Shown here: piece by piece, positions 84 through 64,000 of the stretch
How the letters are laid out: the number at the start of each line of letters is the position of its first letter
Numbering within the stretch: position 1 is the first letter of the stretch
Source of the DNA: Dysidea avara
Lineage: Eukaryota; Porifera; Demospongiae; Dictyoceratida; Dysideidae
DNA length: 64,000 nt
NCBI RefSeq assembly: GCF_963678975.1
Contig: NC_089285.1
Coordinates: forward strand, 8,790,694 to 8,854,693
Reading direction: 5' to 3'
Program-made: the position numbers and the translations under genes
The notes under the pieces: model-generated
Seen by the model: the letters and a program-made list of their open reading frames with translations, nothing else
The model's database searches: none
Told to the model about the DNA's origin: nothing

Positions 84-1294
84 GGTGGGGATCCACATAA
101 CAAATGGTGGCACGGATAGTTGAACAACATCAGGCCATATGTGCAGTGCTTGCAGAAGATAGGAAGCACTGGAACAAGATGCCCAGTGAGAATGAATTTG
201 CCAATCTTGAAGACATGAATTTACAGATGCATTATCAGGAGAAAAACATGTCACAATTTCAGCAGTTCGTCCTCTCCTTGATCACATTTTGAAGACAATT
301 GTGGATGTGAAACCTAGTGACAGACCAATTGTAGAACAGATAAAAGAAAAAATTTGGGAGGATCTCTCAGATCGTTACAGCGGACTCACAGAAACATTAT
401 TAGATAAATGCAGTTTTCTTGATCCAAGATTTCGTTGCAAGTTTGTTGTAGACAGAGAAGAAGTACTTTACCAGATAAAAGAAGAGGCAGTTTTACCAGA
501 TAAAAGAAGACGCAGTTTCAAAGTTAGAAAGTTTGTTGCCACCACGACCTCCACCAACAGATCCAGCTGTAGAAACAGAGTCTACAGAACAAGTTGTGAA
601 GAAGAAGAAACTTAAAGGACTTAGTGCAATTTTACAGCATTGTGTGAAGCCAGTTGGTGAAGAAGACTTGTCTTGTGAAGAGAAAGTGGAGAAGGAAATA
701 AGGAGATACGAGGAGTATCCACCAGTACACATTGACACTGATCCACTACACTGGTGGGAACATGAGAAACAGAAGTTTCCAGCCTTGCAATACTTGGCCC
801 GCAAATATTTGTGTATTTGTGGGACAAGCGTTCCATCAGAGCGATTGTTTAGTAAGGGAGGAAATATTGTCAACACCCAGCGCAACAGACTTTCAGCAGA
901 AAACGTGATTATGTAATCTTTTTATCTAAAAACATGTCTTAGACTTTTGACGTTATACCCATGATTATGTATGTAGACAACATGTTGTGCATTACTAAAT
1001 AAGTGTGTTTTGTAGTGTACTCTGTCTGTAAGTTGTTTATTCAGTGATGATAAATGATCATAATTTCACTTTGTTCCATTATATCATTCTAAAATGAAAG
1101 TACAAAAAGTAATAATAGTACATATATACAATACAACTATTATGTGCTACTATAATGGTGTTACATGTACTTTGTGAGAGCCATTTACTCATTGATCTTT
1201 AATAATTACAGTACTATGGTAAATATCACAATAACCGTGATATTTCCCCTCACAATAATCGTGGAGTTACTTTTTTGATACCGCCCAACTCTAG
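84..1294 (+). mobile_element. hAT transposase remnant (C-terminal half), plus strand
   Basis: Three overlapping frames (104-292, 289-615, 533-916) carry successive parts of a hAT transposase. They end in the dimerisation domain at about 710-910: the LHWWEHEKQKFPAL block, then CGTSVPSERLFSKGG. This domain lets hAT transposases multimerise. The frame changes near 290 and 535-600 mean it is inactive as it stands. After the stop at 914-916 come about 290 bp of 3' untranslated sequence, then a hAT-like terminus at about 1270-1294, which reads CTAGAGTTGGGCGGTATC on the minus strand. The N-terminal half is outside the window or lost. The copy appears inserted in the opposite-strand hAT remnant to its right. 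Confidence 0.7.
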
Positions 1295-3799: not shown

Positions 3800-6700
3800 G
3801 GCACAAGGCTCAGCAACTATTCAATTAACAATTACAGGGGTTAAATTTCAGCATAAGTTTATTGTGGATGACCAAATTACAGCTGATGCAATATTGGGGC
3901 TAGACTTTTTGGAAGCAAATAAATGCGTGCTAAACCTTGCCAAGGGAGAATTGTCTATAGATGAGAAAATAGTTCCACTTTCATCACATTCTAGCGTTGG
4001 GACAGTGGGGTGTGCTAAGGTTACAATGATGGATACAGTAACCGTTCCTGCTGGCAGTGAACTTGAGATCATGGGTCATGTACACTCAGATGTACAGGGA
4101 ACATGGTTGGTGGAAAGCGATGACACCAATACATTACCTGTCTGTGTAGCTAGGGCATTAGTATCAAACCAGGGTGATACTGTGCCACTGAGGGTTGTGA
4201 ACACAGGCTTAACACCAGCAACTCTATATAGAAAGAGCAGAATTGCTATCGCTGAACTAACAAATGACTCCAACATATGTAGCACCACAAGAAGTGAAGA
4301 CTGTACACCTTCACAGGGATCTATTCACAACAATGAATTGCCACTAGCACACCCCCTTCCTGATGACATCACTAATGCTGAGAAAGAACAATTCGTAGCC
4401 TTGTTCTCACATTACACTGATGTAGTAGTTATTAATCCTGAGGAGTTAGGACGAACGAGTATTTTACAACACAACATAAACACAGGTACCTCACCACCAA
4501 TCAGCCAGCCGGCAAGAAGAGTACCACTCCCCCGCCGTGACACTGTACACCAACTTTTACAGGAAATGACAGATAAGGGAATAATCTCACCATCCAAGAG
4601 TCCATGGGCTTCTCCGATTGTCCTCGTCAAGAAAAGGATGGTACTACACGTTTTTGTGTAGATTATAAGAAGGTAAATAACACAACAACCAAAGATGCTT
4701 ACCCACTCCCCAGGGTAGATGACACGCTGGACACCCTAGCAGGGTCGGTTTGGTTCTCAACATTAGACCTGAAAAGTGGCTATTGGCAAGTTCAGATAGC
4801 ACCAGAAGACCGTGCAAAAACTGCATTCTGTACTCAGGAAGGCCTCTTTGAGTTCAATGTAATGCCCTTTGGGCTTTGTAACACTCCAGCCACTTTTCAG
4901 CATCTAGTGGATTCTGTACTAGCCAGACTTCAATGGTCATCTAGCCTTGTTTACCTTGATATCCTTCCAAGACATTGAAAGTGAAAGAATGGCCCAAGCC
5001 CACTTCAGTTCAGGAAGTACAGCAATTCCTTGGTCTGGCAAATTACTATAGACGCTTTGTGAAGGATTTTGCTGCTGTTGCAAGACCATTGCACCAATTG
5101 ACTGAGAAGAAGGCCCCTTTTAAGTGGACTGAATAGTGTGAAGATGCATTTACAACATTGAAGATACATCTTACCTTTGCACCAACATTGGCCCTTCCAG
5201 ACTGGTCACAGCAGTTCATTGTTGATACTGATGCAAGTGACACTGGGATAGGAGCAGTGTTTTCCCAAATACATACAGGTTGGGGCTGAACATGTAACTT
5301 GCTATGCAAGTCGTACCCTCATAAGGTCGGAGAGAAATTATTGTGTGACCAGGAAAGAGCTCTTAGCAGTGGTGTATTTTCTCTAGCACTTCCGGCAATA
5401 TCTTCACAGTGGTCCATTCACCCTCCAAACGGATCGTGGGGCTTTGGCATGGCTCCAGCAGTTTAAAGAGCCAGAAGGGCAGCTCGCACGATGGCTGGAA
5501 AAGTTGCAGGAGTACCATTTTACTATTATTCATCGCCCAGGCCGAAAGCACACTAATGCAGATTCCCTCTCACGTTATCCATGTCGACAGTGTGGCAGAG
5601 AATCCCATCTTACCGAACAAGTGATCTCAACTATTGCAGCAAGTGAGATTATCTGTGGTTACTCTTCTGAGGATATGCATGATTTCCAACAATAGAAGCA
5701 AATCATTGACCCAGATCTAGCTAAAGGTCAAAGCTTGGAATATCGTCGATTCCTACAGTGGGACCAGCTGATTGTGCACAACAGAGTACTGTGGAGGTGC
5801 TATATGCACCCAACAAGTGGAACTTTTTGAAAACAGCTAGTAGTACCAACCAACCTGTGCACTAAAGTGCTACGTGCAACTCACCAAGGGGCTTGTGGGG
5901 GTCATTTAGGTCAAGATAAGTGCCTTAACAAACTGAAGGAGCGTTTCTACTGGCCTTGCCATTACACAGACGTCTGTAACTGGTGTCAAGCATGCCCCAC
6001 ATGTGCCACACGTAAAACACCAGCTCCACGACAACGTGCAGCTCTTGGGACTATTTCAGCTGGATACCCTACCCAGATAATGGCAGTTGATTTACTAGGA
6101 CCATTGACAGAGAGTGAAGAGGGGAATTCATATATAATGGTGGTTGGAGATTACTTCACTTGATGGATGGAAGCTTTCCCAATTACCAACCAAGAAGCAG
6201 CCACAGTAGCAGAGAAGCTTGTTAATGAGGTATTTATGCAATTTTCCATCCCAGAGCAACTACACTCTGACCAAGGCCGTCAATTTGAATCAAAGCTTAT
6301 TGCAGAAATTTGTCATTTATTGAACATTGAAAAGACAAGAACAACACCATACCATCCACAAAGTGATGGCCTAGTAGAGAGAATTAATAGGACTCTGCTT
6401 GATATGCTCTCAACACGTGCCAAGGACCATCCTTTCGAGTGGGAAAATTATATTCGGAAAGTGTGTATGGCATACAATAGCAGTGTGCAAGCTTCCACTG
6501 GTCATACGCCGTTCTATCTGATGTTTGGCCGGCAGGCACGCTTACCACTTGATGTAATGTATGAGACTAGTCCACCTTCACCTGCAAATTCTACCCCTGG
6601 AGAATATGCTGTAGCACTCCAAAAGCAATTGAGAACTGTTTATGACCTGGTCAGAGAGAAAGCATCTAAGGCACACCTTCGGCAGAGACAGCCACACAAA

Positions 6701-7104
6701 CTTGGTGACTTAGTCTGGCTACACTCTGCAGTCACGAAGAAAGGTTCCAGAAGCAAATTACAGCATCAGTGGACTGGTCCCTTTAAGGTAGTCAAGAAGT
6801 TGTCAAATGCCACCCGATAATACAGCAAGACAGCAGACATCCTCACAGCTAAACACACCTACACTTACCTCTGGACATGTGTTTGGTGAAAATCTAGAAC
6901 TGGTTCCTGCTGATGATGACAACGTACAAACTCCAATTGTGAACACTCCTTCATCTGAAAACAATTAAAGACCAGAAGTAGTTACTACTCTGACACCACC
7001 ACGCTGGTATTCTGATAGAACAAGACATCCACCTATACGTTATGATGATTATCTACGACACTAGTTCCTGGACTGTGGGCAGTCCACTTGAAAGAGGGGG
7101 ATAG

Positions 7105-9599: not shown

Positions 9600-11790
9600 C
9601 TGAAGATCATTCAGCAGGTTGAACCAGTACAAGCATTTAATGCAGTTACTCAATTTTCAGAGCTATTTGCTGGCTTAGGCAGACTGACTGATAACTATAC
9701 TGTCAAGCTGACTGATGATGCCAAGCCATTTGCATTAACTACCCCCAGACGAGTTGCTGTACCACTGTTGCCAAAGGTAAAGGCTGAACTGGACCGAATG
9801 GAACGAATTGGAGTTATTTCCAAAGTTACAACTCCCACAGACTGGTGTGCTGGGATGGTAGTCGTGCCAAAACTGAGTGGAGCAGTCCGAATTTGTGTAG
9901 ACTTGACCAAGCTTAACCAAAGCGTGAAAAGAGCGTCATATCCTCCCATCAGTGGAGCAAGTACTAGCACAAATTGGAAATGCCAAAGTGTTCTCAAAAC
10001 TTGATGCCAATTCTGGCTTTTGGCAAATTGAACTTGCAGAAGAGTCTAAACTACTTACTACATTTATTACTCTCTACGGCCGTTTTTGTTTCAACCGCCT
10101 ACCCTTCGGCATCACCTCTGCACCTGAACATTTTCAGCGGAGAATGAGTGAAATTTACAAGGCCTTAAAGGAGTACTTTCCTGGTACATGTGAAATGGAA
10201 TAATTGAATCTCATCATTCTAAGACGGAAACGTTGCACTCAAAGTGGTAGCTCATCAAGATTCTTGGCTGAAAGTAAAGGGACTAATGGTTTGTGATCAG
10301 TTTCTATTTGAAAGGTAAGTCCGATTAAGTAGTCTTGGAATCTCTCACACGCCCATGTCACAGCTAGTGCCTCTTTTTCTATCTGGGAATATCTCTTTTC
10401 TGTGTCAGTGAGAGGTATAGAAATGAAAGCAATCAGACACAAGTTGCCATTTGGCTGTTGCTGTTGTAAAACTGCCCCCAATCCAAATGAGGAGGCATCA
10501 ACTGACACAGTAGTTGGATTGCTAGGATTGTAAAGGCCCAAAACTTGGCTGGATCCACCAACTACAACATCCAGAGCCTTTACTACCATCAACTTTACCA
10601 GAACATCCTTGGCAAAAAGTTGCCACAGATCTATTCGAATGGAACAGTTCTTCTTACCTCCTAGTGGAGGATTATTATTCACGTTACATGGAACTAGCCA
10701 AACTTACTTCAACAACATCAAATGTAGTGATCAAACATCTCAAGTCAATTTTTTCCAGACATGATCTGCCTCAAGTAGTTGTATCAGACAATGGTCCTCA
10801 ATACTTCACAGAGTTTGCTAAACAATATGATTTTACTCATATCACAAGCAGCCCTCAATTTCCTCAAGCAAATGGAGCTGCAGAACGTGCTGTACGCACA
10901 GTGAAAACCCTTCTGAGTAAGAGCAATGATCTGTACATGGCTATGCTAGCTTACCGTTCTACACCACTTGAAGATGGCTATACTCCAGCCCAACTCTTAA
11001 TGGGTAGACAACTTCGTACTCTGGTACCTACCACACAGCAACAATTGAAGCCGAAACTCCCTAATGGCCAAGATTTGAGAAAGAAAGAAACCCAGATCAA
11101 ACAAAGGCAGAAGCAAAACTTTGACTTGCGACACAAGGCTTCTGATCTCAAGCCTCTTAAAAAGGGAGATGAAATATGGCTTCCAGACAGAAAAGAGAAA
11201 GGAACTATTGTAAAACCTCAAGGCACTAGATCATACGTGGTAGAATCAGAAAACCAAAGTATGTATCGTAGAAACAGAAAAATGATACTACCAATGCCAT
11301 CTCAGAAAAAGAGTAATGTAGAAACACCAAAGGCTAATAGCAACAAGAGACTCTGATTGAAAACTAACAGTGATCATATTGCTCTTGTTTTTACTAGAGT
11401 CCACCCAGAACAAGAACAAGTTCAACCTGAACAAGTTCCAGAACCAGTCACAGTGAAACAGACCAGAAGTGGTCGCATTTCCAAACCACCAGATCATCTT
11501 GTCGAAACTGATGATTGAACTGAACTCTTTATTGTTCTGTTGTGTTTATACCCCAGAAGGGGAGATGTAGTATATGGTAGTTCTGTAGTGGTTTTGTAAG
11601 TATTGTAGTTATGTAGTAATAGCATTAGGCATGTGAACATTTGAATGGGCAATAAGCCATGAAACAAGATTCATGTATTATGATTGATGCATGGTTAGAT
11701 TAGCAATACCAGTGTACCTTGCACTAGTACAGTCATGACAGCAGAATTAATCCTTGCTGATAGAATACACTGTAACAACCCCTCAGTACA
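9600..11790 (+). mobile_element. Second Ty3/gypsy retrotransposon fossil, incomplete
   Basis: Plus-strand parts are a reverse transcriptase N-terminal region (VKAELDRMERIGVISKV, then FSKLDANSGFWQIELAEES and LPFGITSAPEHFQRRM), an integrase core (LPQVVVSDNGPQY, FPQANGAAERAVRT) and a Lys-rich integrase tail (10664-11356). An RNase H block lies between them at 10239-10640 on the minus strand (VSVDASSFGLGAVL, FQIETDHKPLVPLL). A purine tract (AGAAGGGGAGA, 11555-11565) precedes a probable 3' LTR starting TGTAGTATATGG at 11566; its right end, placed near 11790, is a guess. No 5' LTR or gag is visible. Broken and rearranged, clearly not intact. Confidence 0.75.
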
Positions 11791-44745: not shown

Positions 44746-45525
44746 TTAATGATATCCTCATACCTCCAGTAGTCTGGTGTAGCCGACCTGCATCTGTATC
44801 AAGCATTTGTATGTTATATAGAATGCATTTTTAGACATAAATTCACTAGAACCCCTGTGGCATCAAGTAGCACTGAAAGAGTACAGTAGCTCTCCAGAAA
44901 GGAGGTATTCCATGTATCCATTCTAATGTATGGAGTTTATATTAAAATGCTTGATCAACCAAAGCAGTGGCAAATTTGACACAAACTACTTAAATTTTAC
45001 ACCAGCTTGCAGCCGCTATAATGCTGTACCTGTTTAAGTGGGGATTTCCCCATGTGTCATTGGGAATCATCATGATAATCTAGTCGTACGCAATCGTCAA
45101 TATGAAATGTATGTGAGTTATTTTCAATCACTGGCTTTACTACAAGAGCAGTCATTTCCCAGTTGAATTGCAGTAAATGTCAAACTTATTGGAAAACTTT
45201 TGAATCATCTGCCATGAAACCCAGAGTTAACTATGAAGAAACATTTTAATGACAGACAACAATTTCCTTTAGAAATCAACTTAACTGTAGGAAAGAACAC
45301 TAGTCGATATTAGCGTATACAGTTACCACTATATCTAATTATAGTCATAGTATATATCAAGAGTATATAATGGGGAGGAAGAGTAATATATTATGTGGAA
45401 TGGAAGTGAACATTCAATAAGTTGAAGACCAGCACTTCTGTGTGTATATATATATATATATGTAAACCCCTATAAAATTGCATGCTATATGGCTATTGTG
45501 TGCTTTTAATATAATTATAGTTGAG
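44746..45525. other. Upstream flank of the Helitron coding region; (TA)n at 45443-45463
   Basis: No coding. A TA-dinucleotide run lies about 65-80 bp before the ATG at 45526. No Helitron 5' terminus could be assigned. Confidence 0.4.
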
Positions 45526-46545
45526 ATGGTAAGCAAGAGCAGGAAACGTCGTCAGCAGCAACAAAGAAAGTATGTAGAGAAACAGAAGGAAACCTGTAAC
45601 AAGGTAGATCAATTTGAGCAACAAGAAGATGATACTGTGGAGAGCACCATGACTTGGGATCAACGGAAACATGAAGTGAATGAGAAGAGACGATCCAAGT
45701 ATTGGAGTTCCCCCAGTCAGAGAAGAGCTAAATCTAGGTACTATTGTAGTGCAAAGTCTCCTATAAAGGAGCGTATGCGGCTAGCATATCATACCAATAA
45801 GCCGACAATCAGTAAACAACGCAGAGAAAAATATTCCCAAAACCCTTCTCCTACACAGAAAAGGATGCGTGAAAGTTATCATTCTAACCCTTCACCAAAA
45901 AGACATAAAATGCGCAGTAGTTACTCTTCTAAGCCTTCACCAGTTAGGCAAAGGATCCGTAAAAGCTATTCCTCTAATCCTTCACCAGTGAGGCAAAGGA
46001 TCCGTAAAAGCTATTCCTCTAATCCTTCACCAGTGAGGCAAAGGATCCGTACAAGGTATTCCTCTAATCCTTCACCGGTGAGGCAAAGGATCCGTAAAAG
46101 CTATTCCTGTAATCCTTCACCAGTAAAGCAAAGGATGCGTAAAAGCTATTCCTGTAATCCTTCACCAGTAAAGCAAAGGATACGTAAAAGCTATTCCTGT
46201 AATCCTTCACCAGTAAAGCAACGGATGCGTAAAAGCTATGCTTTACATCATTCACATATAAAGCAAAGGATGCGCAAACGCTATGCTTTAGATCCTTCAC
46301 CAGTGAGACAAAGAATGCGTACAAATTATGCTGTAGATCCCTCACCAGTGAGGCAAAGGATGCGTAATGCCTATAGACGTAATCCCTCTCCTAAACGACA
46401 TCAAGTGCTCAGTGCATATAAACGCTATCCAAAGCCATGGATCAAACGGATTTTGGCCAAATACCATCTAAATCCATTAGCTGTTAAACATCGTGCTTTA
46501 TCGTCATATTATGCAAATATCGATCAGTCGATGCATCAGGCATGA
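45526..46545 (+). CDS. Helitron N-terminal basic 15-residue repeat array
   Basis: It starts MVSKSRKRRQQQQRKYVEK. From about residue 100 on, roughly fifteen 15-residue units follow, consensus SNPSPVRQRIRKSYS, encoded by a 45-bp tandem repeat (45834-46515). Every unit has an NPSP-like turn and four to five Arg/Lys, so the array is strongly positively charged and probably binds DNA or RNA. Basic N-terminal repeats of NPEK type occur in other Helitron-like proteins as I recall them; this sequence version is distinct. Central units are nearly identical at the DNA level, suggesting recent expansion. The frame passes to the next block near 46535. Confidence 0.8.
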   Translation: MVSKSRKRRQQQQRKYVEKQKETCNKVDQFEQQEDDTVESTMTWDQRKHEVNEKRRSKYWSSPSQRRAKSRYYCSAKSPIKERMRLAYHTNKPTISKQRREKYSQNPSPTQKRMRESYHSNPSPKRHKMRSSYSSKPSPVRQRIRKSYSSNPSPVRQRIRKSYSSNPSPVRQRIRTRYSSNPSPVRQRIRKSYSCNPSPVKQRMRKSYSCNPSPVKQRIRKSYSCNPSPVKQRMRKSYALHHSHIKQRMRKRYALDPSPVRQRMRTNYAVDPSPVRQRMRNAYRRNPSPKRHQVLSAYKRYPKPWIKRILAKYHLNPLAVKHRALSSYYANIDQSMHQA

Positions 46546-47849
46546 GAAGTATGCTGAAAATCCACTTCCTGCTAAGAAAAGAGCAGCACAACGATATGAA
46601 AGACTACACAGTGAACTATTGCACAAAGCAGCTGAGAAACGATGTGCCTCTTTAAGTGCGTTGGGTGTGTGCAAAAAGTATAACCGTATTTTCAAGCGTA
46701 AAGGCAATCATCACGGTACTGCCTCAGAGTATGTGGAAAGACTAGTTCGAACAATGGGAATAAGGAACAGGGCAGCAAACATGATTAAGGCGCAATTGTT
46801 AGTTAAGTCTGGTATGCAGCAGCTTAGCTTCTTTAAACATCAATTCATAAAATCTTTTAATAAACTGAAGAACAATTTAGAGGCTTCTCTTTGCAAGAAA
46901 TCTGATGAAGTCCTTATGGACTCTACATCACTCCTTGGTATCAATTTGCACACAAGTAACACCGAAGCATTTTTCCCTCAGGCCACATACAACCAGGAAG
47001 CATTTAATGAAGATGGCAGCTTAAAGTGTGAGGAATTTCCAGGGTATACAATCAAGTGCAGCATTGCTGGGAAGGATGTTTCAACATGGGAATGCTGTTA
47101 TGACCCACCATGGTGCAAGTTGGACAAAACCGAAGTAATTGAAGATAGACTTCAGAGCATATATCATAATATCATTGAATGTGCACCTGATACTGCTCGC
47201 AGGTACATCCAGCAGATAGATGATTGCACCAATCAGTTAGCAAAAGAGGAGCTGCTTCAAGGCCATCCATTGCATTGCTATAATTATAGCATCTCCACCT
47301 TGTCATTCTCCTCTGTTGTATTTACGTATGCTAGCTCCTCATTTTCCAGACATACGGTGTGTGGTGCAAATGTTGTATGAAGTACGTAGACATGACAGAA
47401 AAATTGCAGAGATAGAGCATGCTTTGAAACGTGGAGATTTAGAGAAGATCTCAGAGATTGTAGAAATTGCTAAAACCAGCAGACTTCGACAGTTTGATGT
47501 TGACCACAATCCTTTGAGCGAAACACAAATATATGAGGAACATAAGGCAGCTTATGAGAAGTTCTCTGAACGGTGTCTGGATGTTGCAAATTACCCTTGC
47601 ATATCATGTGACAAACTGTGCTACCGGAGAGAATGTTCACACTTAAATAGTTTGCGCATTTTGCCCAACAGCTGTGAATGGCAGGCTTTGCTGGAGTATA
47701 ATGAGAACAGACGAGAATACAATGATGGACTGCCCAAAGGATATATATGCAAGTATTGCTTGAATTATTTCAGACAAGCAAAATTCCCACCACGGTGCAT
47801 ATTAAATGGGTGCAGTTTGGAGATATTCCAGAAGAGATATCCATACTAA
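46493..47849 (+). CDS. Helitron Cys-rich region between repeat array and relaxase
   Basis: Two successive frames (46493-47330 and 47316-47849). The first contains ENPLPAKKRAAQRYERLHSE, then WECCYDPPWCKLDK. The second contains PCISCDKLCYRRECSHL and GYICKYCLNYF, Cys pairs that could bind zinc. Helitrons commonly carry Cys-rich zinc-finger-like regions ahead of the relaxase, thought to help recognise termini. The junction between the frames lies near 47290. Confidence 0.7.
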
Positions 47850-49540
47850 ATGCTTATGAGAAAATATTAATACAGAGGGCAAAATGTTTTCAGACAGTGA
47901 CCAGGATGGGAACAGTTGCAAAAAGGCAGATGCCTGCTAGCCACAAGATTCAGAAGGTAACTGGAGCAACATTTCACTTGCCGTTACCAATTGAAGAAAC
48001 ATTGAAAAGATTGCCTGAACCACAGCAAGCACTTCCAAATCATGGTGAACTATTCATTTTAATGCGCAGTATACCAAGTAAATCCAACGTTATTTGGCAG
48101 GACCTTGTAGATGTGAACAAGGTGTACAATGCTCTTCTAAAGTTGAAAGAAATCAATCCACTGTATGCTTTGATTCAGCTTCCTGGAACTGCAGAAGAAC
48201 TAGAGATTGGTAGCCTAATTGATGCAGGGTCATATGGAGAACCACTTGCAACATCCGGACAGGCTATGGTAGAAGAAATTGCTGAGCATGAGGAGCAATC
48301 ATACTATGAGCAATATACAATTAATCCATTGCATGCCCCAAGAGAAAACAAGAAGGCCACAGCACTCTACCAAATGCTTAAAATAAATGAAGCTCCTCTT
48401 GACAACCGTATGAAAAATCTGGATGTTATGTTTCCCAGATTTGTACCCACATGATATTGGTGGACAGAGGTGTCAACGAGAAGTGCCGTTAAGTGCAGCA
48501 GAGTACGTTAAATGCATTTTGCAATCACGTGATCCACGTTTTAGACTAAACCAACAACTAATCTTTTATTTAAATAATCAAGCTACACTGCGACAAATTG
48601 CAAGTGGAATTTACCACAAACTAAAAGTGATTAGGCCAAGTGAACGGCTAACTGCTGCCCGATGTCTAGAAATGCTGTTGTCAGAAGAAATAGAGGGCAG
48701 CTTAACCACGATATTTGCACGTGTGCGTAATACCGAATCGTTTTGGACCAGATATCGCAATGATCTTAACTGTATGTCACTTCATTATGGCCCACCTACA
48801 TGGTTTATCACATTAAATCCTGGGGAATGGTTGTGGGATGATCTTCGGGCTTATTTGATAAGTATAACCTCCAGTTTCTCTACAATGTCCATAAGTGAGA
48901 TGATCGTCACAGACCCAGTGTCCGCTACTAGATTCATTGATAACAAGTACAAAGCTATTTATGATTTTATTCTTAGTGACAGTCAACCTTTGGGTCCTGT
49001 ATATGCTCTTGGTGCAAAGCGTGAATATCAAGGGAGAGGTTTGCAACACAGTCATGCAGAGGTGTGGGTAGAAGGAGCACCAATAATTGGTGAAAGCACA
49101 GATGAAGAAATTTGTGAATTTGTGAGCAAGTATGTCACGTGTCAGATCCCTGACAGTACACTGTGCCCAACACTGTATGAACGAGTAATAATATTTCAGC
49201 AGCATTCTTGTAATGATTATTGTCTAAGAGGCAAGAAGGAGTAAAGAAAATTTGTAGATTTGGTTTTCCCAGGCCTCAGCGTGAAAAAATAGTCCTGAGA
49301 AATGTCATTGATGCTGTTGCTGGAAGAAAATCCCTGAAGACTAATTCCCGACTTTACGACTTGCCACGTTGTGCGAATGAAGTACGCATAAACGATTACA
49401 GCCCTGCAATACTGCTCGCATGGCAGGGTAATATGGACATCCAATTCATCGGGGAAAATTCATCTGTCTTTAACTGGTATTGCACAAAATATTGTACAAA
49501 ACCAGAAAAAAGCACACTGTTGAAGATTTTGATTGCATAA
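47747..49540 (+). CDS. Helitron-like N-terminal domain with HUH relaxase and two-Tyr motif
   Basis: Three overlapping frames. IPEEISILNAYEKILIQRAK opens the Helitron-like N domain. LDVMFP/CFPDLYPHDIGG marks the LH.L.FP..YP region. PPTWFITLNPGEWLWDDL is the TxNP block. GRGLQHSHAEVWV (His codons 49047-49049 and 49053-49055) is the HUH metal-binding motif. FNWYCTKYCTKPEK holds the tyrosine pair (49478-49480, 49490-49492) expected to nick and join single strands. All key residues of the rolling-circle nuclease can be seen. The frame changes at the A6 run 49506-49511 just after the tyrosines. Confidence 0.85.
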
Positions 49541-51840
49541 ATAAGTCTACTAAGTCCATAACAAGCAAACTGTGGAATTTTGCAATGAGATCCTTGTCAC
49601 ACCGAGAGTGTGGTGCTTTGGAAGCATGTGACACACTTCTTGGTATTCCACTGTTTGTAACTGATCCAAATACCACGATCCGGTGGGTTGATGTAAATAT
49701 GGTGCGCAGTAGACGATTGAAAGAGAAGTCTGTGATAGAAAGCATGGATAGAGAGTCATGTGACATATTTTTTCCTTCTTGGGTAGACTCATATTACCCC
49801 AACAGACCAGAGCAGTTGGAAAATGTGCACCTTCACAACTTTATGTCTTGGTTTGATTTTGTTCGAGCAGAACCAATTCAGTTAGCAATATACTATCGTT
49901 TTCAAGATGGCTTTTTAAAAAGGAGAACACGGCCTTACTTGATTAATCATTACAAATACAGTGTGGATCAGGAAGCAGAGAAGTATTATTATGCATTGCT
50001 TCTTCTGTTCAAACCTTGGAGAAATAGTGAAACATTGATGGGTAGTAGTGAAAGCTACAAAAGTGAGTTTGAAAACTGTCAAGAGCAATTACCGGATGCT
50101 GTAAACTATCACAATCGACTACAGCAGATGCAGAAACAAGATGAAATTGTCAGGGACCAGATTGATAGGCGACGAACAGAAATGGAACAAGAAGAGGATG
50201 GCTCTACAGATGTTGTTATCCAAGATCCACTTCTCAGTGCTTATACTGAAGCCCAGGGTGCTATGGCCGAGTTTGAGGAAGCAGTGGCTAACAAGGACAT
50301 TATTGATGTGGACTCCATGATTGAAAAGTTAAATGATGATCAAAGAAGAGTGTTTGATAGAGTAAGCTCTCACCTCCAAGCCCAAAATTCTTCCACAGTA
50401 CTAAATCATCCAGAACCACTACGTATGTTTGTTAGTGGTTGTGGTGGTACAGGGAAAAGTTTCCTAATAAAAACTTTGAAAGCATGGATCCATTCCTCAT
50501 TGGAAAAGCATGCTGCTATCACAGCACCTACAGGAATTTCGGCATTTAATGTGAATGGCCTAACGATCCATCGCCTACTACAGTTGCCTGTAGAGCATGG
50601 CAAGACGCCTAAATATCGTTCCCTATCAGATGAAGCAATAAAAATTGTCAGAGAGAAGTTACAACATTTGGTGCTTTTAATCGTAGATGAAATATCAATG
50701 GTCAGCCATGTCACCCTACTCTATATTCATCTAAGGCTGACAGAAATATTTAACACAGGTGACATAAAAAATGGTTGGTTTGGCTGCAAGAATATTTTAG
50801 TGTTTGGTGATTTGTTACAGCTACCACCAGTCTTTGAGCAGCCTGTGTATACCCCACTTACTAGTGCTACTGTTCATAAGCATACTGACTCTCCAGGTGG
50901 TGTGGACATTTGGCAGCCACTCTTTGAATACGATGAGCTAGTTATCAACATGCGGCAAAAAGATCATCACCAGTTTACAGAATTGTTGGGAAGAGTTAGA
51001 CTGGGAAAACTTACTGCAAATGATATTAAAATGCTTAATCAGCGCAAGTTATCCCTTAGGAGTGCTTCTATTAGTGGGAGGATGAAAGAAGTGGTAGATG
51101 TGCTCCTAAAACTACCAGAAGACACTGTTTGTTTACTGCCTACCAGGAGCATGTGTATGGAGATAAATGCTGAAGTGTTAAGCCGTCTACCAGGTAAAGA
51201 GTACAAACTAGTTGCAGAAGACAGCGTGGACTGTTCAATGAAGACTGCACCCAAACCGCAGGATTAGAGAACGTCATTGGGGTAAAGATTGGGTGCAAAG
51301 TTATGTTGCGCTGTAACATTGATGTTTCTCGGGGTCTAGTGAATGGTGCTATTGGGACAGTACAGTCCATTCGGCATAGTATTGATCAAGCCAATAAGGT
51401 AGAATCACTGACTATAAAATTCCACAATAATGAGGAAGAACATTTATTAAAAAGAGTAAGTACCAAGTTTGAAGTATTCAGTGGAGCCTTTGTAATTAGA
51501 TCACAATTTCCTATCACTGCTGCAAGTGCCATCACCATCCACAAGAGTCAAGGGCTCACACTGAAGCATGTAGTTACAGACATAGGAAACACTGTGTTTA
51601 CATGTGGACAGGCATATGTGGCTTTATCTAGGGTAACATCACTTGATGGTCTACATTTGATAAATTTTGATCCTAGGTCTGTCAAGGCCCTTGATTCAGC
51701 AATACTGGAATACAACAGGTTGAGAATACAATACCGGCCAACTCTTGAAAGATTTTCTGTCACTAAACAAAGATCCAAGAAAGTAGATGATATTCAGTGG
51801 TGCACGATTCCATGGACATCTGCGGTTCAGCGACCAGCAG
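49500..51840 (+). CDS. Helitron PIF1-type helicase
   Basis: An SF1B helicase with its motifs in order: LNDDQRRVFDRV (Q-like), GCGGTGKS Walker A at 50437-50460, TAPTGISAFNVNGLTIHRLL (Ia), LLIVDEISMV Walker B near 50674-50703, LVFGDLLQLPPV (III), MLRCNIDVSRGLVNGAIGTV, ITIHKSQGLTL (V) and AYVALSRVTSLDGLHL (VI). It would unwind donor DNA during rolling-circle transposition. An acidic and coiled region (DQIDRRRTEMEQEEDG) links it to the relaxase. The frame changes once near 51255, between the DSVDCSMKT and LENVIGVKIG segments. All nucleotide-binding residues are intact. Confidence 0.9.
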
Positions 51841-51860
51841 CACAAGCTGTCACATTTAAA

Positions 51861-52650
51861 AGGAAAGGGTTTGTAAATAAAGATGGTGTGTCAAGTTTTG
51901 CAAACTCAGTGATGCAGTGTGTCCTGTTTTCTCCAGTTGTACGCAAGGTGATCTTGGATGGACATGATGGAGCTATTAAAAATTTGTGCAGACAATATGT
52001 AAACAATGCTGATACCCCTCTGGATTGCACAGAGTTACGTCAAGAGCTAGGCAGTCCATTTGATGGATCTTTTTCTCAAGATGCTTTGAAGTTTTTGATT
52101 TTAATCATGGTGACTTCCTTTGAAGTACACTTACCAATGCATCATACAGTTAATGTGCATACCAGATGTCGACATTGTGGTAGAAAAGATGTGGGCACTT
52201 GTGACGAGAATGTTGTAGAATTACGCTTTCCAGAATCATGTAAAAGTATAAAATTTGATGATCTAATGAAATTTTCTTTAGGGTGGATGGAATCTGATAG
52301 TACATGCAAGGACTGCCATGGCATTGAAGAAGTTCGCAAGGACATTATCAAAGTAGGCAGTGTGCTAGTGTTTAGAATGAATGTATGCCAATTAATAAAA
52401 GGTAAAACTTGTCCTCGAAAGACTAGTGTCACTGCAGTATCAAGTAGTACATTTGTGATAGATGGTCGAAAGTACAAGCTAATGGCAGCAGTTAGTGAAG
52501 TGGCCACTTCATCACGACCTGGATACGAATACAAAGCTATACTTTCAATAAGTGGAAAATGGTTGCATTGCACTGATCTTACCATGAGCACAGAAAATTG
52601 GCCACGTGGTTCAAAGGGTGTGTATTTATTGTTTTATCATGCTGTGTCTT
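51861..52650 (+). CDS. First C-terminal USP-like domain, catalytically dead
   Basis: The domain begins NKDGVSSFANSVMQCVLF, aligning with the USP Cys box, but the catalytic position is Ser (codon 51894-51896, AGT where the sister domain has TGT). A Cys-pair finger follows (RCRHCGRKDVGTC, TCKDCHG). The His-box equivalent reads SSRPGYEYKAILS without the His, then WLHCTDLT and GVYLLFYHA close the fold. Ubiquitin-specific proteases (C19) cleave ubiquitin from proteins; this copy keeps the framework without the catalytic Cys or His, so binding rather than cleavage is the plausible role. It is in frame with the helicase C-terminus and with the second USP domain. Confidence 0.75.
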
Positions 52651-52914
52651 CTGTGCCAACTCAGAAAGAAGCAGTCAACCATAGTAAACAGCCTATTAAA
52701 CATGTAAAAGCCCCTGCATCTGTGAAGCCACCTACAGCAGGTACAACAATCGATTTGGCAGCTGTAAATAGCACCAGAGATAATAGTGAAAGTCTTAAAT
52801 CCACATCCCCTGGTATAGATGCACCAACTGAGACTGCAGCAACTCCTGTAAAGAATACTACCAGGAGATATGCTGAATTCAAAACCTCAGGACCATCTAG
52901 AGCAAGTGTAGCTG

Positions 52915-53732
52915 ATAGGTCATTTAAAAGTTGTGTGCCTTTCAAAAATCCTGATGGTGTATCGTGTTATGCTAATTCAGTGTTACAGTCTCTCTTGCAG
53001 CACAGTGCTCTCAGAAGTGCATTCATTGCCAGTAGGTACACAGTTCTACGAGACTTATCCAACTCATACAATTATCCATCCAGAGATGAAGTACTTTCTT
53101 GTAGACAAGTACGCCGAATGATCGGAGCACCATTTTCTGAGCAAAGGCAGCAAGATGCATCAGAATTTTTGGTTAATTTATCTATGTATTGCAGAACAAT
53201 AGAGAACTGCTTGAAACTGTTCATAAGAACTAGGATACGATGTACCAATTGCCCATACTCATCGTGTAGTGATGTTGGCAATGTGTTACTGCTTCTTACC
53301 ATTCCTGAAGGGCCATCAATGAATGTTACATTAAGTAGTATGTTTGCTAGGATGGAAAGTTGGGAAGTACTAGAAGGTTCACACTGTACCACTTGCAGTG
53401 TTGAAGGTGCTGTGTATGAGTCAAGTCGAAAACTAGTAACAGCTAGTGAGCTAATTGTAGTGCAACTCAAACTGTACAGTTATAGAGGAGGTGTTGCACA
53501 TAAAGTAAATGCGTCTGTGGATGATGTTGCACGTTTTACACTGACAGTGGAGGGTAGGCAGTACAGAGTGAAAAATATTATTTCTCATTATGGACCCAGT
53601 GCTACCTCAGGGCACTACACTTCCTGTCACAAACAAGACAGAGGCTGGGTAATGGCTAATGATACGAATTTGACTAGACTGGATTCACCAATGACTGATA
53701 AAGACATTTATATTTTCTTTGCAAAGGATTGA
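52915..53732 (+). CDS. Second C-terminal USP-like domain, catalytic residues kept
   Basis: NPDGVSCYANSVLQSLLQHS is the Cys box (catalytic Cys codon 52965-52967). QQDASEFLVNL is the QQDA.EFL block typical of USPs. RCTNCPYSSC and HCTTC form the zinc finger. HYGPSATSGHYTSC is the His box (His codon 53613-53615), and GWVMANDTNLTRL supplies the third polar residue. It ends DIYIFFAKD then TGA. It therefore looks like an active C19 deubiquitinase fused to the Helitron protein. A 90-residue Ser/Thr/Pro-rich linker (52650-52910) separates it from the first domain. Sister-domain similarity suggests internal duplication. Confidence 0.8.
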
Positions 53733-54400
53733 CTGAGCATGTAAGATATTTAATCTAAATTTTGAACTTTATTATTTATTGTATATTAATAGGTCTTGAT
53801 TATGGGTATCTGGAAGTGTGTTATCTGGAGACTAAATAACAGGTCACAACTTGTTGTTTTATGCCATTGATAGTTATGTATTCTGTTTTACAGGATGTGA
53901 ATTTAATGCCTTAGAGAAGCTACAGCTGATTTAAAAGTCTGCATGCCTTCATACTTCAGAGAAATAGCCAGCAGGTTGCAAGCTATCATCAAGTTTTTAT
54001 TGTGTATAACCAAAATTAATGAGTACTACTCAAAAGGTATCCATAATCTTGAATAATGAAAATATATTTGATTAAGAACTTTTCTTTAAGGAGTGGATCT
54101 TCATTAGTCTGTTTTAGATCTGTTTGTGCAAGTGTGATGTACGCTTGATATAAACTTCCACAAAGCGTCTATCCTGTTATCAGCATGGGACAAAACAGAC
54201 ATGGATCCAATTTTCTGCGATATTGGGTAAGATAATGCATTGCACAATATACAGATATAAAAATTTTCTTTAAACACATGCAGCATTGCGTGCTTATCAT
54301 GATCATACAATAGTGAGGATTTAATATGTTACTGTATGCCTAACATATTGTAGTCCCTGGCAACATTACACATTGATAGGACTAGAAAAACAATATAATA
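53733..54400. other. 3' flank of the Helitron; nothing recognised
   Basis: AT-rich, non-coding. No terminal hairpin followed by CTRR could be identified with confidence. Confidence 0.4.
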
Positions 54401-55021
54401 TGTGACCCAGTCTGAGAAAACCGGTCTTATCACCCATGTCAGCAGATTCGATTTTTCACCCAGGACACAAAGCTACATGAATAAACTATCTAATTCCACA
54501 ATCAAAATCAGCTAGACTTGAGTGGTCTGGTTTTGCTGGCTGCTTTTCCAAAGTCCTGTGGTGATCCGTGCATGCTGTGTGGGGCCTTAATGGAGCTCTG
54601 GTCAGTCTGGGGATGACTGTATGTGGCTGTACAGCTCTGTGGTATTGAATAAGTGCCTCTGCTGTAAATTTCCATTCATTTTAGCCTATTTTGAGACCTC
54701 AATGGCCCAAAACGTGACCTAATTCATCCCTACGCCTTCCTTTTCAATTTTTGAACACCATCTTGTCTGCCTCCCACCCAATTTGCAGCTCGCCTGATAC
54801 ATTCAGCTTCAGTTTAAAAAATCTAAAATGGCGGGAAACTTAGTTGTTGGCTACTTGCACAGTGGATACTCTGGAAGGTAAGGAATTGGTGTAAAACGTG
54901 TGAAAATTTGGTACACATAGCTTCAACCATTGGTGAACTACAACATACTAAATACTTAAAACTGGCGTTTCTCGATACTTTTAAATAGACGATAAGCCCG
55001 GTTTTCCCAGACTGGGTCACA
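54401..55021. mobile_element. 621-bp MITE with TIRs of about 28 bp
   Basis: The left end TGTGACCCAGTCTGAGAAAA then CCGGTCTTATC is matched at the right, read inward, by TGTGACCCAGTCTGGGAAAA then CCGGGCTTATC. It has no coding capacity. The flanks are TA-rich (AATA/TATA), so the target duplication is ambiguous and the superfamily is not assigned. Confidence 0.8.
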
Positions 55022-55079
55022 TATATAGGAAGTATATTGGTGTTAGTCTTACCTCATCAATTGTATAATTGCATGTTTT

Positions 55080-55625
55080 CATGACAATGATCACAGTGAC
55101 CATAGTGATGAGGATGAAGATGACTATGGCGATGACCGTAACGATGATGATAGTAACATTCACAAGATGGAATCTTTACAGTAGCATCTCAATCATGCAA
55201 AGGTGCACATCACTACAATATTGAAACATTTCTTTATGAGCTGCATTTAGCAAGGTATCATGGAGATCAGAGATCAGGCATCATGCATCATGGAGATCAG
55301 GCAGCATGAACATTGAAATAGCAACTATAAGGCTATTACTTTTATTATTTATTTATATTTCTCACTGCAGGTGTGACGATGATGATGTTCAACATTTTGA
55401 CACATGATGCTGACAATCCACTTGATATGGTGGTAAAGATGATCCTGATGATCAGTGTGGATGATCAGCTTGATGTTGTGGATACTGATGGTCAGAATAC
55501 TGATGATCAACATGGATGATCAGCATAGTATTTTAGATCACCATGACGATGACCACTATGATCAAAAATCATCTACATGATGATAATGTGGAGGTGGTGG
55601 TGGAGGAGGTGGCGGGGGTTGTCAG
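55080..55625 (+). repeat. GAT-rich low-complexity region
   Basis: Degenerate GATGAT-, TGATCAGCA- and GATGAC-type repeats, ending in a G-rich tract (GGTGGTGGTGGAGGAGGTGG near 55591-55615). Confidence 0.75.
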
Positions 55626-57852
55626 TAGTATTATATAGTACTACATGGTCAGCGCCTCCACGTGGTGACCCCTGGGCAGTTGAATATACTCAACTGGCTA
55701 AAGCTGACCAGTCAAGTTGTATGTTCACAGTACAAGGTACGGTCAAATAATAACAACACTTACAGATATAATTTAGAATTTGTATTTACAGGGCTTTGCC
55801 ACACCACAATGAAGCATTCCAGGCAGTATTTCTCTTATCACAACCACAAGGTAACGTTGACAAACTAACAAACATGTTGTGAGACCTGACTTTGTTGTGT
55901 AATTTATGTTTAGTTTTTACTCTTCCAATTTTCTCAATTTCCATAGGTAAGCAAATCCTCACCCTTAGGTAAATCCACACACCCTTATCTTGTTCCAAAT
56001 GATTTCTTCCTTTATGTTGCACATTCCTTAAAACAGCTCAACACGTCATGATTTCATTAATGAAAGCTATATTTTGTTTGTTTCATGTTAGCAGTAGTAC
56101 TCTTGTATTGCATATGATTATAGCTAGTTTAACACCAAATTTAGCTGACTACAGTTAAATTAATGGACAGTTTCTGTAACAGACTTTGTAATGTTTGGCT
56201 TAGTCCCTCCTACACTCCCATTGCCTTAGTAACTGCTGTGCAGACAAACTACAGTACCCCTGCAATACACTGAAGAATATTACCCTCTTTAATAATAGTT
56301 TAAGTCACAGTTCCTTCAAGTTGACTGTTCAAACTACTACCTTGTGAAGGCTCCATATAAAAGGTAGGCCTGCAGTAAGTTTGCTCATTAGTTTAGAGGT
56401 TCCACTGTAAGCCTATTGTTACCATTTCAGTACATCAGTATAAAAGCTCAAGTATAATGAACGTTGACAAACTATCACTAAGAAAAGTAAAACTACCATG
56501 CATAGAGCCAAAAGTTTTCAAGAGAGAAATTTTTGTTGGTTTTGAGATTTTGAAAGAAGCAGCAAAAAAATGTATGCATGATCTTATAGCAGCATATTAA
56601 TTACTACATAGATGTTTTACTTGGAAATCCAGAAAAAAAATTATTGCCACCATTGAAATAATTATGGCTAAGGCTATACAGTATAAAGAACGAAAAAATG
56701 ATTAGTTTTATAAGTGTTTTTGGTAAGACAAGTGAATCAAGCACTTTGAAGTGTTTATAACACATATCTATACAATTATTGCAAGATGATTTTCCTTTAC
56801 TGCTATATTACATATTTCTGCAGGGTGAATGTTGTTACCTTAACTTCACATCTATACTTACCAGTGGTCTAGTAAGATATTTCCTACCACCAGTAAGATC
56901 ATGGGACCTTCAAATTGCTGACTGACTTAGAAATGTTAGATGTGGCACTCCACATCAGGACCTACAGACACCAGTCCTACATTATTATGCCACAACAGTA
57001 TCCTGGGAGTGAAAGACCCACTAACATTGCATTTTGTACTGTATGTATGTAACATTAATTCCTCTATCAATTTATAGGCTATTGTACTATAAAAGCTTTT
57101 GTATATACCCATCTACTGCTGCTCTTTCCTTTAAGAACTTCATAAGCTGTCTACGTTTTAGATGACAAGACTTATTTATTTTAAGGAATTTTGTAATTCA
57201 GAAACAATACACTACACCACATGCATAGCTAATGAACATGTGGTGACCACATCAACAAGTGTCAAAGTTTGTCTGACTCCTAGAAAGGTTTACAAAGCAC
57301 ACAAATCTGGAGCTTAAATAAAATTATTTACCATGGAAACAGTGCACCTTGACAACCTACCTAATATTTCCCACGAAGTACTGATTTCATAGCTTCTGTG
57401 GATCTTGTATGTATAGTAACATTCTGTGCATATACGGATCAAAATTCAAACTGCACAATATATGTGACAAGGCCTACTAAATATCACATGTGAGCTTAAA
57501 TTTCAAACTTTCATTATTGCCTTGAAAGCTTTAGTAGGCATGAAGTATTCACTATACATGCTGCAGAATGCTAAAACTCTAATACAGTAGTTGAGTGACA
57601 ACTCAGGTTTTTGTAGGCCTTATCACATAAATTCTGTATAAAATATTTGAAGAGCCTCATTTCTCATCAAAATTATGAAAATTAGCTACAGCAGTTACAT
57701 CATGTCAGTTCTGTAATGAAAAAGACAAAATATTGTAGCCAACACTATTAATAAAGTATTATTGCAGTAACTACTAGTCACAAAGAAACGCATTAATTTA
57801 CCATTTACCTTAAATGTACGGCCACGTGAGACTGATAATTTCATGCCGGCGG
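55626..57852. other. No gene recognised
   Basis: About 2.2 kb of non-coding sequence downstream of the membrane-protein gene. It may contain that gene's 3' untranslated region. Confidence 0.4.
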
Positions 57853-58457
57853 TCATAAATTCCGAGGGTGGTATCTACTCCTTGAGCTACTCCTGATCAT
57901 GAAGTATTGGAAACTGATAGTTTGACCTAACTTTATTAACAACGTACGTACCTGTGACGATGTCGATGTCGGCTTCCACTAGTGTAAGACTCAGCGGTGT
58001 CTGGGGCTGCCACGGAACTCAACCTGGAAGGGCCAATTCGTTGGAGTAACTGCCCAAACTGCTCCTCGGACAAGATTATGACAGATGTAGCTGGCTGAGA
58101 GGTAGGGGATGGGGCAAACGGTACCAAGTCCGTGGCCTCAGTTTGTGTGCCCATACTGACAGCCTCAGGAGGCGCCATGACAGATGATGGTAATGAAGGG
58201 GTCGGTGGGGTCTCCGTTTGCATGGCCATACTGATAACAGGAGCGATTGGAGTTGGCGAGGATACAGCCACATCAGATACATCTGTTTGTGTACTCGCAG
58301 CACTGCTTGGCGGTTGCCGGTACGCATCAGTTTGCATAGCATTGTTGACAGTGTGGGCAGGCTCACGACGTCGCAAAAAAGATGCGACGCACCCAACCAG
58401 GCAAAGGATGAACGCTATCAAACTACCAAAGACTATATAGAGAGCCACCACTTCCAT
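57853..58457 (-). CDS. Single-pass membrane protein with four LC8-like QT motifs, two exons
   Basis: Exon 1 (57952-58457) and exon 2 (57853-57892) join in phase across a 59-nt intron with GTACGT and TGATCAG ends. The protein is 181 residues. Residues about 5-27 (ALYIVFGSLIAFILCLVGCV) form a hydrophobic helix followed by FLRRR, predicting a cytosolic C-terminus. The tail is Pro/Ser/Thr-rich and holds MQTD (41-44), TQTD (56-59), MQTE (79-82) and TQTE (104-107). TQT is the anchor of dynein light chain LC8 binding motifs, and repeated sites are common in LC8 partners. A short helix (SEEQFGQLLQRI) and an Arg/His/Ser tail (HRHRHRRSSSRSRYHPRNL) end it. No named family recognised. The start ATG follows CAGAACGAA. 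Confidence 0.65.
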
Positions 58458-62880: not shown

Positions 62881-64000
62881 TGTTATTCTACATCCTCCGT
62901 GGGGCAGCGTAGTATTTCAGTCCATTTACTGATCTTCTTCAAAGCCTTAGTAGTAGTAGTTCTCTTCTCACGAGTTGGTGCAGGAGGAGGATCAGCAGCA
63001 ACATTACTGGCTGATGTGTCTTCAGATTCCCGGACTGTATGTGTATCTTGTATGATATCATTAACATTGTCAGCAACTTCGAGAGGATACAGTTTGACAA
63101 TTGGTCTGGTTGTTCCATAGTTAGCTGTTTTTATCAGAGCTGAGCGAATTAAACCATCATTGTCTTTGACCAATTCTTCTATCACAGCCAACTTCTAGTT
63201 TAAACTTGGTGTGTCATCGTGTACACCTACAATGTCTCCTTTCTTTATAGATTGTTTATTAGCTCCATTGATTTTGTAGAATTCTCTAAGTGCTGTCAAG
63301 TATGCTTTCCTCCATCGTGACCCAAATCTCTGTATTAACTGTGAATTTTTGTCTACTACCCTTCTTATGTCCACATTACTAAGGTAAGTGGGATCATTAA
63401 GTTCATCTAGATCATCAAGTGTGTGGAGATCGGACTGAATTCTTCCATATATCAAATGGGTAGGAGTGAGTGGCTCAGGATCAGAAATGTCAGAAAACAC
63501 ATATGTAAGAGATTTATCATTGAGCATAGCCTCAATCTCAGTGATAATTGTCTCGAGCTTCTGTTGTGACACAAATGCTCTACCAAGGGTCTTCTTAACT
63601 GCTTGTTTAGTCAAACCTATTAACCTCTCCCAAAATCCCCATACCATGACACTTGCTTTGGAATGAAATGCCAAGTGACATGTTGTCATCCTAAAGCTTC
63701 TTTGAGAACATCTGAATCAAATAGCTTCCGTATTTCCTCCACAGCAGCCAGGTATGTGGAGGCACTGTCTGATATCATGTGACTGGGTAGTGACTTACGA
63801 CTTGCAAATCTTCAAAAGGCAAGTAGAAAGCTATCAACAGTGAGATCTGAAACAACTTCAAGATGAACTCCTCTGGTGCAAGCACAGGTAAATAAAGAAA
63901 TATACACTTTCTTTTCTCTGCTTGGTTCTTTGACATATAATGCACCAGTGAAATCAACACCTGTCACTTCAAAGGGTTTGGATTCACTAACACGCACTTT
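62881..64000 (-). mobile_element. BEL/Pao LTR retrotransposon fossil, 3' part
   Basis: Minus strand, running off the right edge. Parts: integrase core start (PFEVTGVDFTGALYVKEPSR, 63812-63997), later integrase (VMVWGFWERLIGLTKQAVKK, PLTPTHLIYGR, 63195-63689) and the C-terminal DUF5641-like region (LIQRFGSRWRKAYLTALREF, IKKGDIVGVHDD, then the 62883-63191 tail). A TGTAG start just after GGAGGA near 62890 may mark the 3' LTR. Broken, with about three breaks in the visible part; age cannot be estimated without the second LTR. Confidence 0.8.

Follow-up and report, generated by a model that had tools for sequence, protein, structure and literature searches.

An in-frame fusion of a Helitron helicase end with a predicted pseudo-USP and a predicted active USP in a decayed element of the sponge Dysidea avara

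The open reading frame at 51198-53732 (+) of the analysed window, which is the whole 64,000-nucleotide stretch, contains 844 codons without a stop and encodes the C-terminal half of a PIF1 helicase followed by two ubiquitin-specific-protease (USP, C19) domains. It is an in-frame fusion of the helicase end with two USP-type domains, and we infer that the fusion was part of the Helitron while the element was active. The present copy is decayed and is not an autonomous Helitron, as an intact RepHel frame is absent. On the whole, we think it reasonably probable that this is the remnant of a Helitron whose RepHel had a deubiquitinase module at its end, made up of an inactive USP and then an active one. 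The latter (the element's USP2) most likely trimmed ubiquitin off RepHel or off proteins located where transposition took place. The parts of the element are as follows.

45466-46545, + strand: N-terminal open frame with 45-nt / 15-aa basic tandem repeats (open frame; repeat detection)
46481-47849, + strand: two frame-shifted N-terminal open stretches, 46481-47380 and 47241-47849 (open frames)
47726-48454, + strand: open frame with DUF6570 (Pfam PF20209, E 1.2e-13)
48414-49244, + strand: Rep part, Helitron_like_N (Pfam PF14214, E 2.1e-18)
49217-49540, + strand: Rep part, with the motif WYCTKYCTK, which has two tyrosines, at 49475-49501 (open frame; motif position)
49474-51267, + strand: PIF1 helicase, N-terminal half (Pfam PF05970, E 1e-25; PDB PIF1 chains; Helraiser 7lcc, E 5.1e-11)
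51198-51738, + strand: PIF1 helicase, C-terminal half, opening the 844-codon frame (PDB PIF1, E 1.1e-20; Helraiser 7lcc, E 5.1e-9; Pif1_2B, E 1.6e-5)
about 51861-52640, + strand: USP1, predicted pseudo-USP (UCH, 5.9e-5; UCH_1, 3.6e-5; homology to USP2; residues)
52641-52919, + strand: linker between USP1 and USP2, rich in Ser/Thr/Pro/Lys, coding frame unchanged (codon score highest in that frame)
52920-53732, + strand: USP2, predicted active USP (Pfam UCH, 9.2e-21; USP5 and USP15 chains; catalytic residues present)

To locate the join, we searched the beginning of the 844-codon frame against the PDB. Residues 24-180 matched the C-terminal half of PIF1 helicases, and this part carries the motifs HKSQG (51540) and YVALSRV (51615). 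For the first 221 residues, the PIF1-type match ended at residue 170-180 (about 51737) among the best 12 PDB matches, and the match to Helraiser, the bat Helitron (PDB 7lcc), stopped at residue 148. USP1 starts about 120 bases (about 40 aa) past the last matched helicase residue. The linker is thus short, the frame is kept at the join, and 1.87 kb are free of stops, so that no intron is required there. Given only the base composition of the frame, an 844-codon opening would arise by chance with a probability of about 10^-26. Codon scores were trained on the helicase at 49540-51219 and compared over six frames, and it turned out that the 844-codon frame scored highest in all four segments (helicase end, USP1, linker and USP2). 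Helraiser resembles the element in its PIF1-type Helitron helicase and matches both helicase halves; however, its 1496-aa chain stops 36 residues past the matched stretch, while here 696 residues follow, including the two USPs. That the helicase C-terminus continues without a frame change into two USP modules, as the first-pass annotation had proposed, is borne out by the open 844-codon frame, the Pfam UCH and UCH_1 matches and the PDB helicase matches. More generally, the UCH, UCH_1, Helitron_like_N and PIF1 profiles were all matched in frames of the element.

The residues that are catalytic in USPs are well established. USP2 retains the Cys box (GVSCYANS, 52956-52979), QQDA (in QQDASEFL, 53148), two CxxC pairs (53241 and 53385), the His box (SGHY, 53607) and Asn/Asp (in WVMANDTN, 53646-53669), and its match to Pfam UCH (E 9.2e-21, 75 bits; searched as 52920-53729) covers 7-253 of the 254 profile positions. 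Among solved USPs in the PDB (phmmer), it matched USP5 (E 2.2e-6; the best, with 30.5 bits) and USP15 (E 4.2e-6). Among the cellular USPs (USP5, USP15, USP2/21), USP5 aligns piecewise with the element's USP2 at the Cys box, QQDA and the His/Asn-Asp box, so that the Cys and His-Asn-Asp boxes pair with those of the enzyme. Unlike the cellular USPs, the element's USP2 is short (about 260 aa), diverged, carried on a transposon helicase and placed beside a pseudo-USP. From these residues and alignments, it is predicted to be an active USP.

USP1 is much more diverged. As searched (51840-52670), it matched UCH with E 5.9e-5 and 23.2 bits, 0.7 bit below the curated 23.9, and UCH_1 with E 3.6e-5 and 24.0 bits, over the curated cut-off of 22.2; alone it had no PDB match at E 5 (phmmer). 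Its Cys box, GVSSFANS (51885-51908), has Ser in place of the catalytic Cys, and the GHY His box is missing, with RPGYEYKA (52515-52538) standing there. Because of these two changes, USP1 is predicted to be an inactive, diverged pseudo-USP. It retains SQDALKFL (52074), CxxC at 52167 and 52305, WLHCTD (52560, with the Asp kept) and the open frame. Thus, the earlier claim of a tandem USP holds in that there are two USP-type domains; however, USP1 has neither the catalytic Cys nor the catalytic His, and only USP2 looks catalytically competent.

Aligned with each other by blastp, the two domains are 22% identical across 261 aa, need few gaps and score 78.2 bits, whereas the best score among 1000 shuffles was 23.5. 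A profile built from USP1 and USP2 matched USP5 (1.8e-10) and USP15 (4.2e-9). Because the pair aligns with each other at 78 bits (blastp), against 30.5 bits between USP2 and its best solved USP and none for USP1 at E 5 (phmmer), the sequences suggest an old tandem duplication, which would fit better than two separate captures. As controls, USP1 was shuffled twice and reversed once and USP2 was shuffled once; none of these four sequences matched UCH at E 1, and the reversed USP1 gave a single unrelated weak match (PaRep2a, E 0.076). The PHROGs and NCBIfam profiles gave only helicase and other weak matches, with no USP. Structure models were not informative: AlphaFold2 models from two-row alignments had pLDDT of 37.5 and 47.3, a confidence too low for use, and Foldseek with both gave no match at E 0.001. 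The best Foldseek row for the USP2 model was USP15 (6cpm_D), with E 0.019 and TM 0.18, and is not counted as a fold match; for the USP1 model, no USP was among the best 50 matches listed.

Upstream, both a Helitron-type Rep domain with an HUH-like motif and a PIF1-type SF1 helicase are present. The motif GLQHSHAEVW lies in the Rep part at 49038-49067, and we take its GLQHSH (at 49038) to be the HUH motif of Helitron Rep. WYCTKYCTK, matched by eye, may be the two-tyrosine motif that follows the Helitron Rep domain. At E 1, the PDB matches of the piece at 48414-49244 did not include a Helitron chain, and the piece at 49217-49540 had no Pfam match at E 0.01 and no PDB match at E 10. The N-terminal half of the helicase contains Walker A (GCGGTGKSF, 50437) and DEISMV (within 50680-50703). 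Toward the N-terminus, the stretches 46481-47380 and 47241-47849 gave only weak Pfam matches below cut-offs (best E 0.016 and 0.021), and the frame at 45466-46545 had no Pfam match at E 1. The N-terminal end of the Helitron frame contains, at 45860-46367, a 45-nt tandem repeat of 11.3 copies encoding basic 15-aa units (NPSPVRQRIRKSYSS-like), which possibly form a nucleic-acid-binding tail.

The element is spread over eight overlapping frames, with seven frame changes in 45466-51267 (about 5.7 kb). One of these (51198-51267) falls inside the helicase, so that only the second helicase half shares its frame with the USP pair. As a result of the seven changes, the full RepHel protein cannot be encoded by the present copy. 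The Helitron-USP protein described in the first-pass annotation therefore stands as far as the fused helicase end; with RepHel broken upstream, the present sequence of this copy could not yield a full RepHel-USP protein. With seven changes in 5.7 kb, the Poisson probability that the final 2.5 kb would be free of them is 0.048, which is a post hoc and weak contrast.

Helitrons start with TC, carry a hairpin with CTRR at the 3' end and sit between A and T. No element ends were recognised by the 3' scan of 53733-58000 or by inverted repeats between the flanks. The scan for CTRR-T plus a hairpin gave one weak candidate (55485) in low-complexity DNA, and flank-to-flank inverted repeats of 11, 12, 13 and 14 bases numbered 1, 0, 0 and 0, compared with 2.7, 0.5, 0.1 and 0.03 in shuffles. 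Further copies were not found within the window: eight pieces searched by tblastn matched only themselves, barring three weak matches (E 0.014-0.038) that fall in the repeat at 45.8-46.1 kb. In collections that are not for animal genomes, no relatives were confirmed in viral contigs (844-aa frame, helicase half, Rep piece and USP alignment), in prokaryote genome contigs (844-aa frame and USP alignment) or in phages (tblastn with USP2). The helicase-USP-USP arrangement is known from a single copy.

Deubiquitinases on Helitrons have been described for other classes. The statement in the first-pass annotation that OTU-carrying Helitrons are known agrees with PMC4067079, PMC9741609 and PMC2836005. 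Like the element here, OTU Helentrons (PMC4067079, PMC6431247, PMC2836005) are rolling-circle transposons with a predicted ubiquitin-pathway cysteine protease; unlike it, they use the OTU class, with additional ORFs in PMC4067079, whereas here a USP is fused within the helicase frame. PMC9741609 describes Helentrons with VTD (herpes-tegument-type) deubiquitinases, one studied element having two domains, and 121 VTD Helitrons that additionally contain OTU. In assays reported there, three intact VTD domains, taken from two Helitrons of zebrafish, were active, and inactive VTDs are present in insect proteins. The zebrafish elements DrT1 and DrT2 (PMC9741609) are thus similar in having a rolling-circle protein, tandem deubiquitinase domains (DrT1) and a class with both active and inactive domains described. 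However, their domains are VTD rather than USP, and DrT1-VTD2 occupies residues 300-520 of the UniProt entry, while here the deubiquitinase pair sits after the helicase. Besides, the zebrafish VTD Helentrons have a C-terminal AP endonuclease, which was not found in the Dysidea frame (no Pfam match at E 1 in the 844-aa frame), so that by that mark the element is not a Helentron. Nor was there a Pfam match to an OTU or herpes-tegument protease in ten pieces of the element (nine at E 1, two of them within the 844-aa frame, and one at E 0.01).

For the USP class itself, the nearest case in these sources is XP_001314237.1 from Trichomonas vaginalis, which combines Transposase_11 with Peptidase C19 (PMC2836005). 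It, too, is a DNA transposase that bears a C19 (USP) domain, but of the transposase_11 family and not a Helitron, and a tandem or a pseudo-USP is unmentioned in the accessible part of that paper. A USP domain joined to a Helitron was not among the literature matches listed, mostly non-subscription papers, and is also absent from the available portions of PMC4289320, PMC7928374, PMC8022731, PMC8955601 and PMC10308649 and from those of PMC9741609, PMC4067079, PMC6431247 and PMC2836005. So C19 on another transposase (PMC2836005) and tandem deubiquitinases on a Helitron, for the VTD class (PMC9741609), are already known. Within this literature, the USP class in a rolling-circle element, its position immediately behind the helicase and the pairing of a pseudo-USP with an active one appear to be new.

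All functions that we infer for the USP pair are drawn by analogy. An active USP2 would most likely strip ubiquitin from RepHel or from other proteins kept where transposition takes place, and the removal would lead to a longer-lasting transposase or to dampened host repair and silencing signals. The pseudo-USP1 would most likely bind ubiquitin or position the substrate; it is read as a retained binding module because its Cys and His are lost, yet QDA, both CxxC pairs and the open frame are kept. That a deubiquitinase could shield the transposase or alter host signalling, as the first-pass annotation suggested, is not a new idea. Tandem deubiquitinases have been published for VTD with the suggestion that transposition proteins are protected from the proteasome (PMC9741609), PMC4067079 proposes chromatin signalling or RepHel cleavage for OTU, and as early as 2010 the ubiquitin pathway was proposed to be widely involved in transposition (PMC2836005).

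The USP pair is taken as a part of the element because it shares one frame with the helicase end, has helicase-like codon scores and follows after a short gap without a stop; the end of the Helraiser chain 36 residues after the matched stretch also counts for this. The precedent of Helentrons with tandem VTDs, active in zebrafish Helitrons and inactive in insect proteins (PMC9741609), supports the explanation as a whole. Against it stand the single copy, the seven frame changes, the lack of relatives in the viral, prokaryote and phage collections, the lack of ends and the unusable models. A rival reading is a one-off event, in which a single Helitron copy captured a host gene encoding two USP domains, or landed next to one, and no other copy has the in-frame join. 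We find this rather doubtful. To our knowledge, host genes do not commonly encode two homologous USP domains next to each other, and the in-frame join, the short linker, the 1.87 kb without a stop or a need for an intron and the helicase-like codon use all argue against it. Helitrons do capture host fragments (PMC6431247), and the lack of a second copy within the window and in the viral and prokaryote contigs would fit, but capture of a full-length host gene is described as exceptionally rare (PMC6431247). An assembly join of an unrelated USP gene onto the Helitron is highly improbable. The upstream frame changes could partly be sequence errors. However, only about one random join in three would preserve the frame by chance, and such a join would seldom place the start of a domain some 40 aa behind the helicase and also match its codon use. 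The breaks do not look like homopolymer errors, since an unusual base run is absent from six of the seven break zones and only 49474-49540 has one, a run of six.

Another reading, which we regard as unlikely, is that the main action of the USP module is in trans, on ubiquitin signals of the host (histones, PCNA or repair factors) at the nick, rather than the protection of RepHel. Rolling-circle transposition depends on host replication and repair, both regulated by ubiquitin, which counts for such a role. The repair argument was also made for OTU and Ulp1 on transposases (PMC2836005), and USP is described as a mostly substrate-specific class of deubiquitinase (PMC9741609). On the other hand, no target can be read from the sequence, and the covalent fusion favours the element's own protein or its close neighbours as the substrate. 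Returning to a module that trims ubiquitin from RepHel or its surroundings, the chances are about even that there is a whole Helitron lineage with a C-terminal pseudo-USP and active USP as a standard part of the transposase; rolling-circle transposons would then have recruited a third class of deubiquitinase independently. If that is true, removal of ubiquitin would be a general need of rolling-circle transposons. If the USP pair recurs, three classes (OTU, VTD and USP) would have been acquired by these transposons, beside the C19 on an unrelated transposase (PMC2836005), and such convergence would mean that ubiquitin limits these elements in host cells. USP2 offers a concrete enzyme for asking which target is ubiquitinated, and the active/dead pair would be a natural case of a pseudo-deubiquitinase retained beside its active twin.

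The rest of the window has further signs of mobile DNA. Rfam and tRNA scans of the 64-kb window gave no match. Among 17 other frames scanned, two had retroelement integrase core (rve) matches over the curated cut-off (6164-6817 and 10526-11353, both +), and a few others matched transposon profiles weakly. A hAT-like RNase H match at 211-612 (+) and a DUF5641 match at 63198-63716 (-), both weak and below the curated cut-off, are perhaps further transposon remains. Downstream of USP2, two 34-nt inverted repeat arms (54398-54431 and 54991-55024) are 94% complementary and 559 nt apart, and the pair looks like a small inverted-repeat transposon, whose arm pattern had no match in viral contigs. Beyond it, the region 55080-55620 is of low complexity and rich in GATGAT and GATCA.
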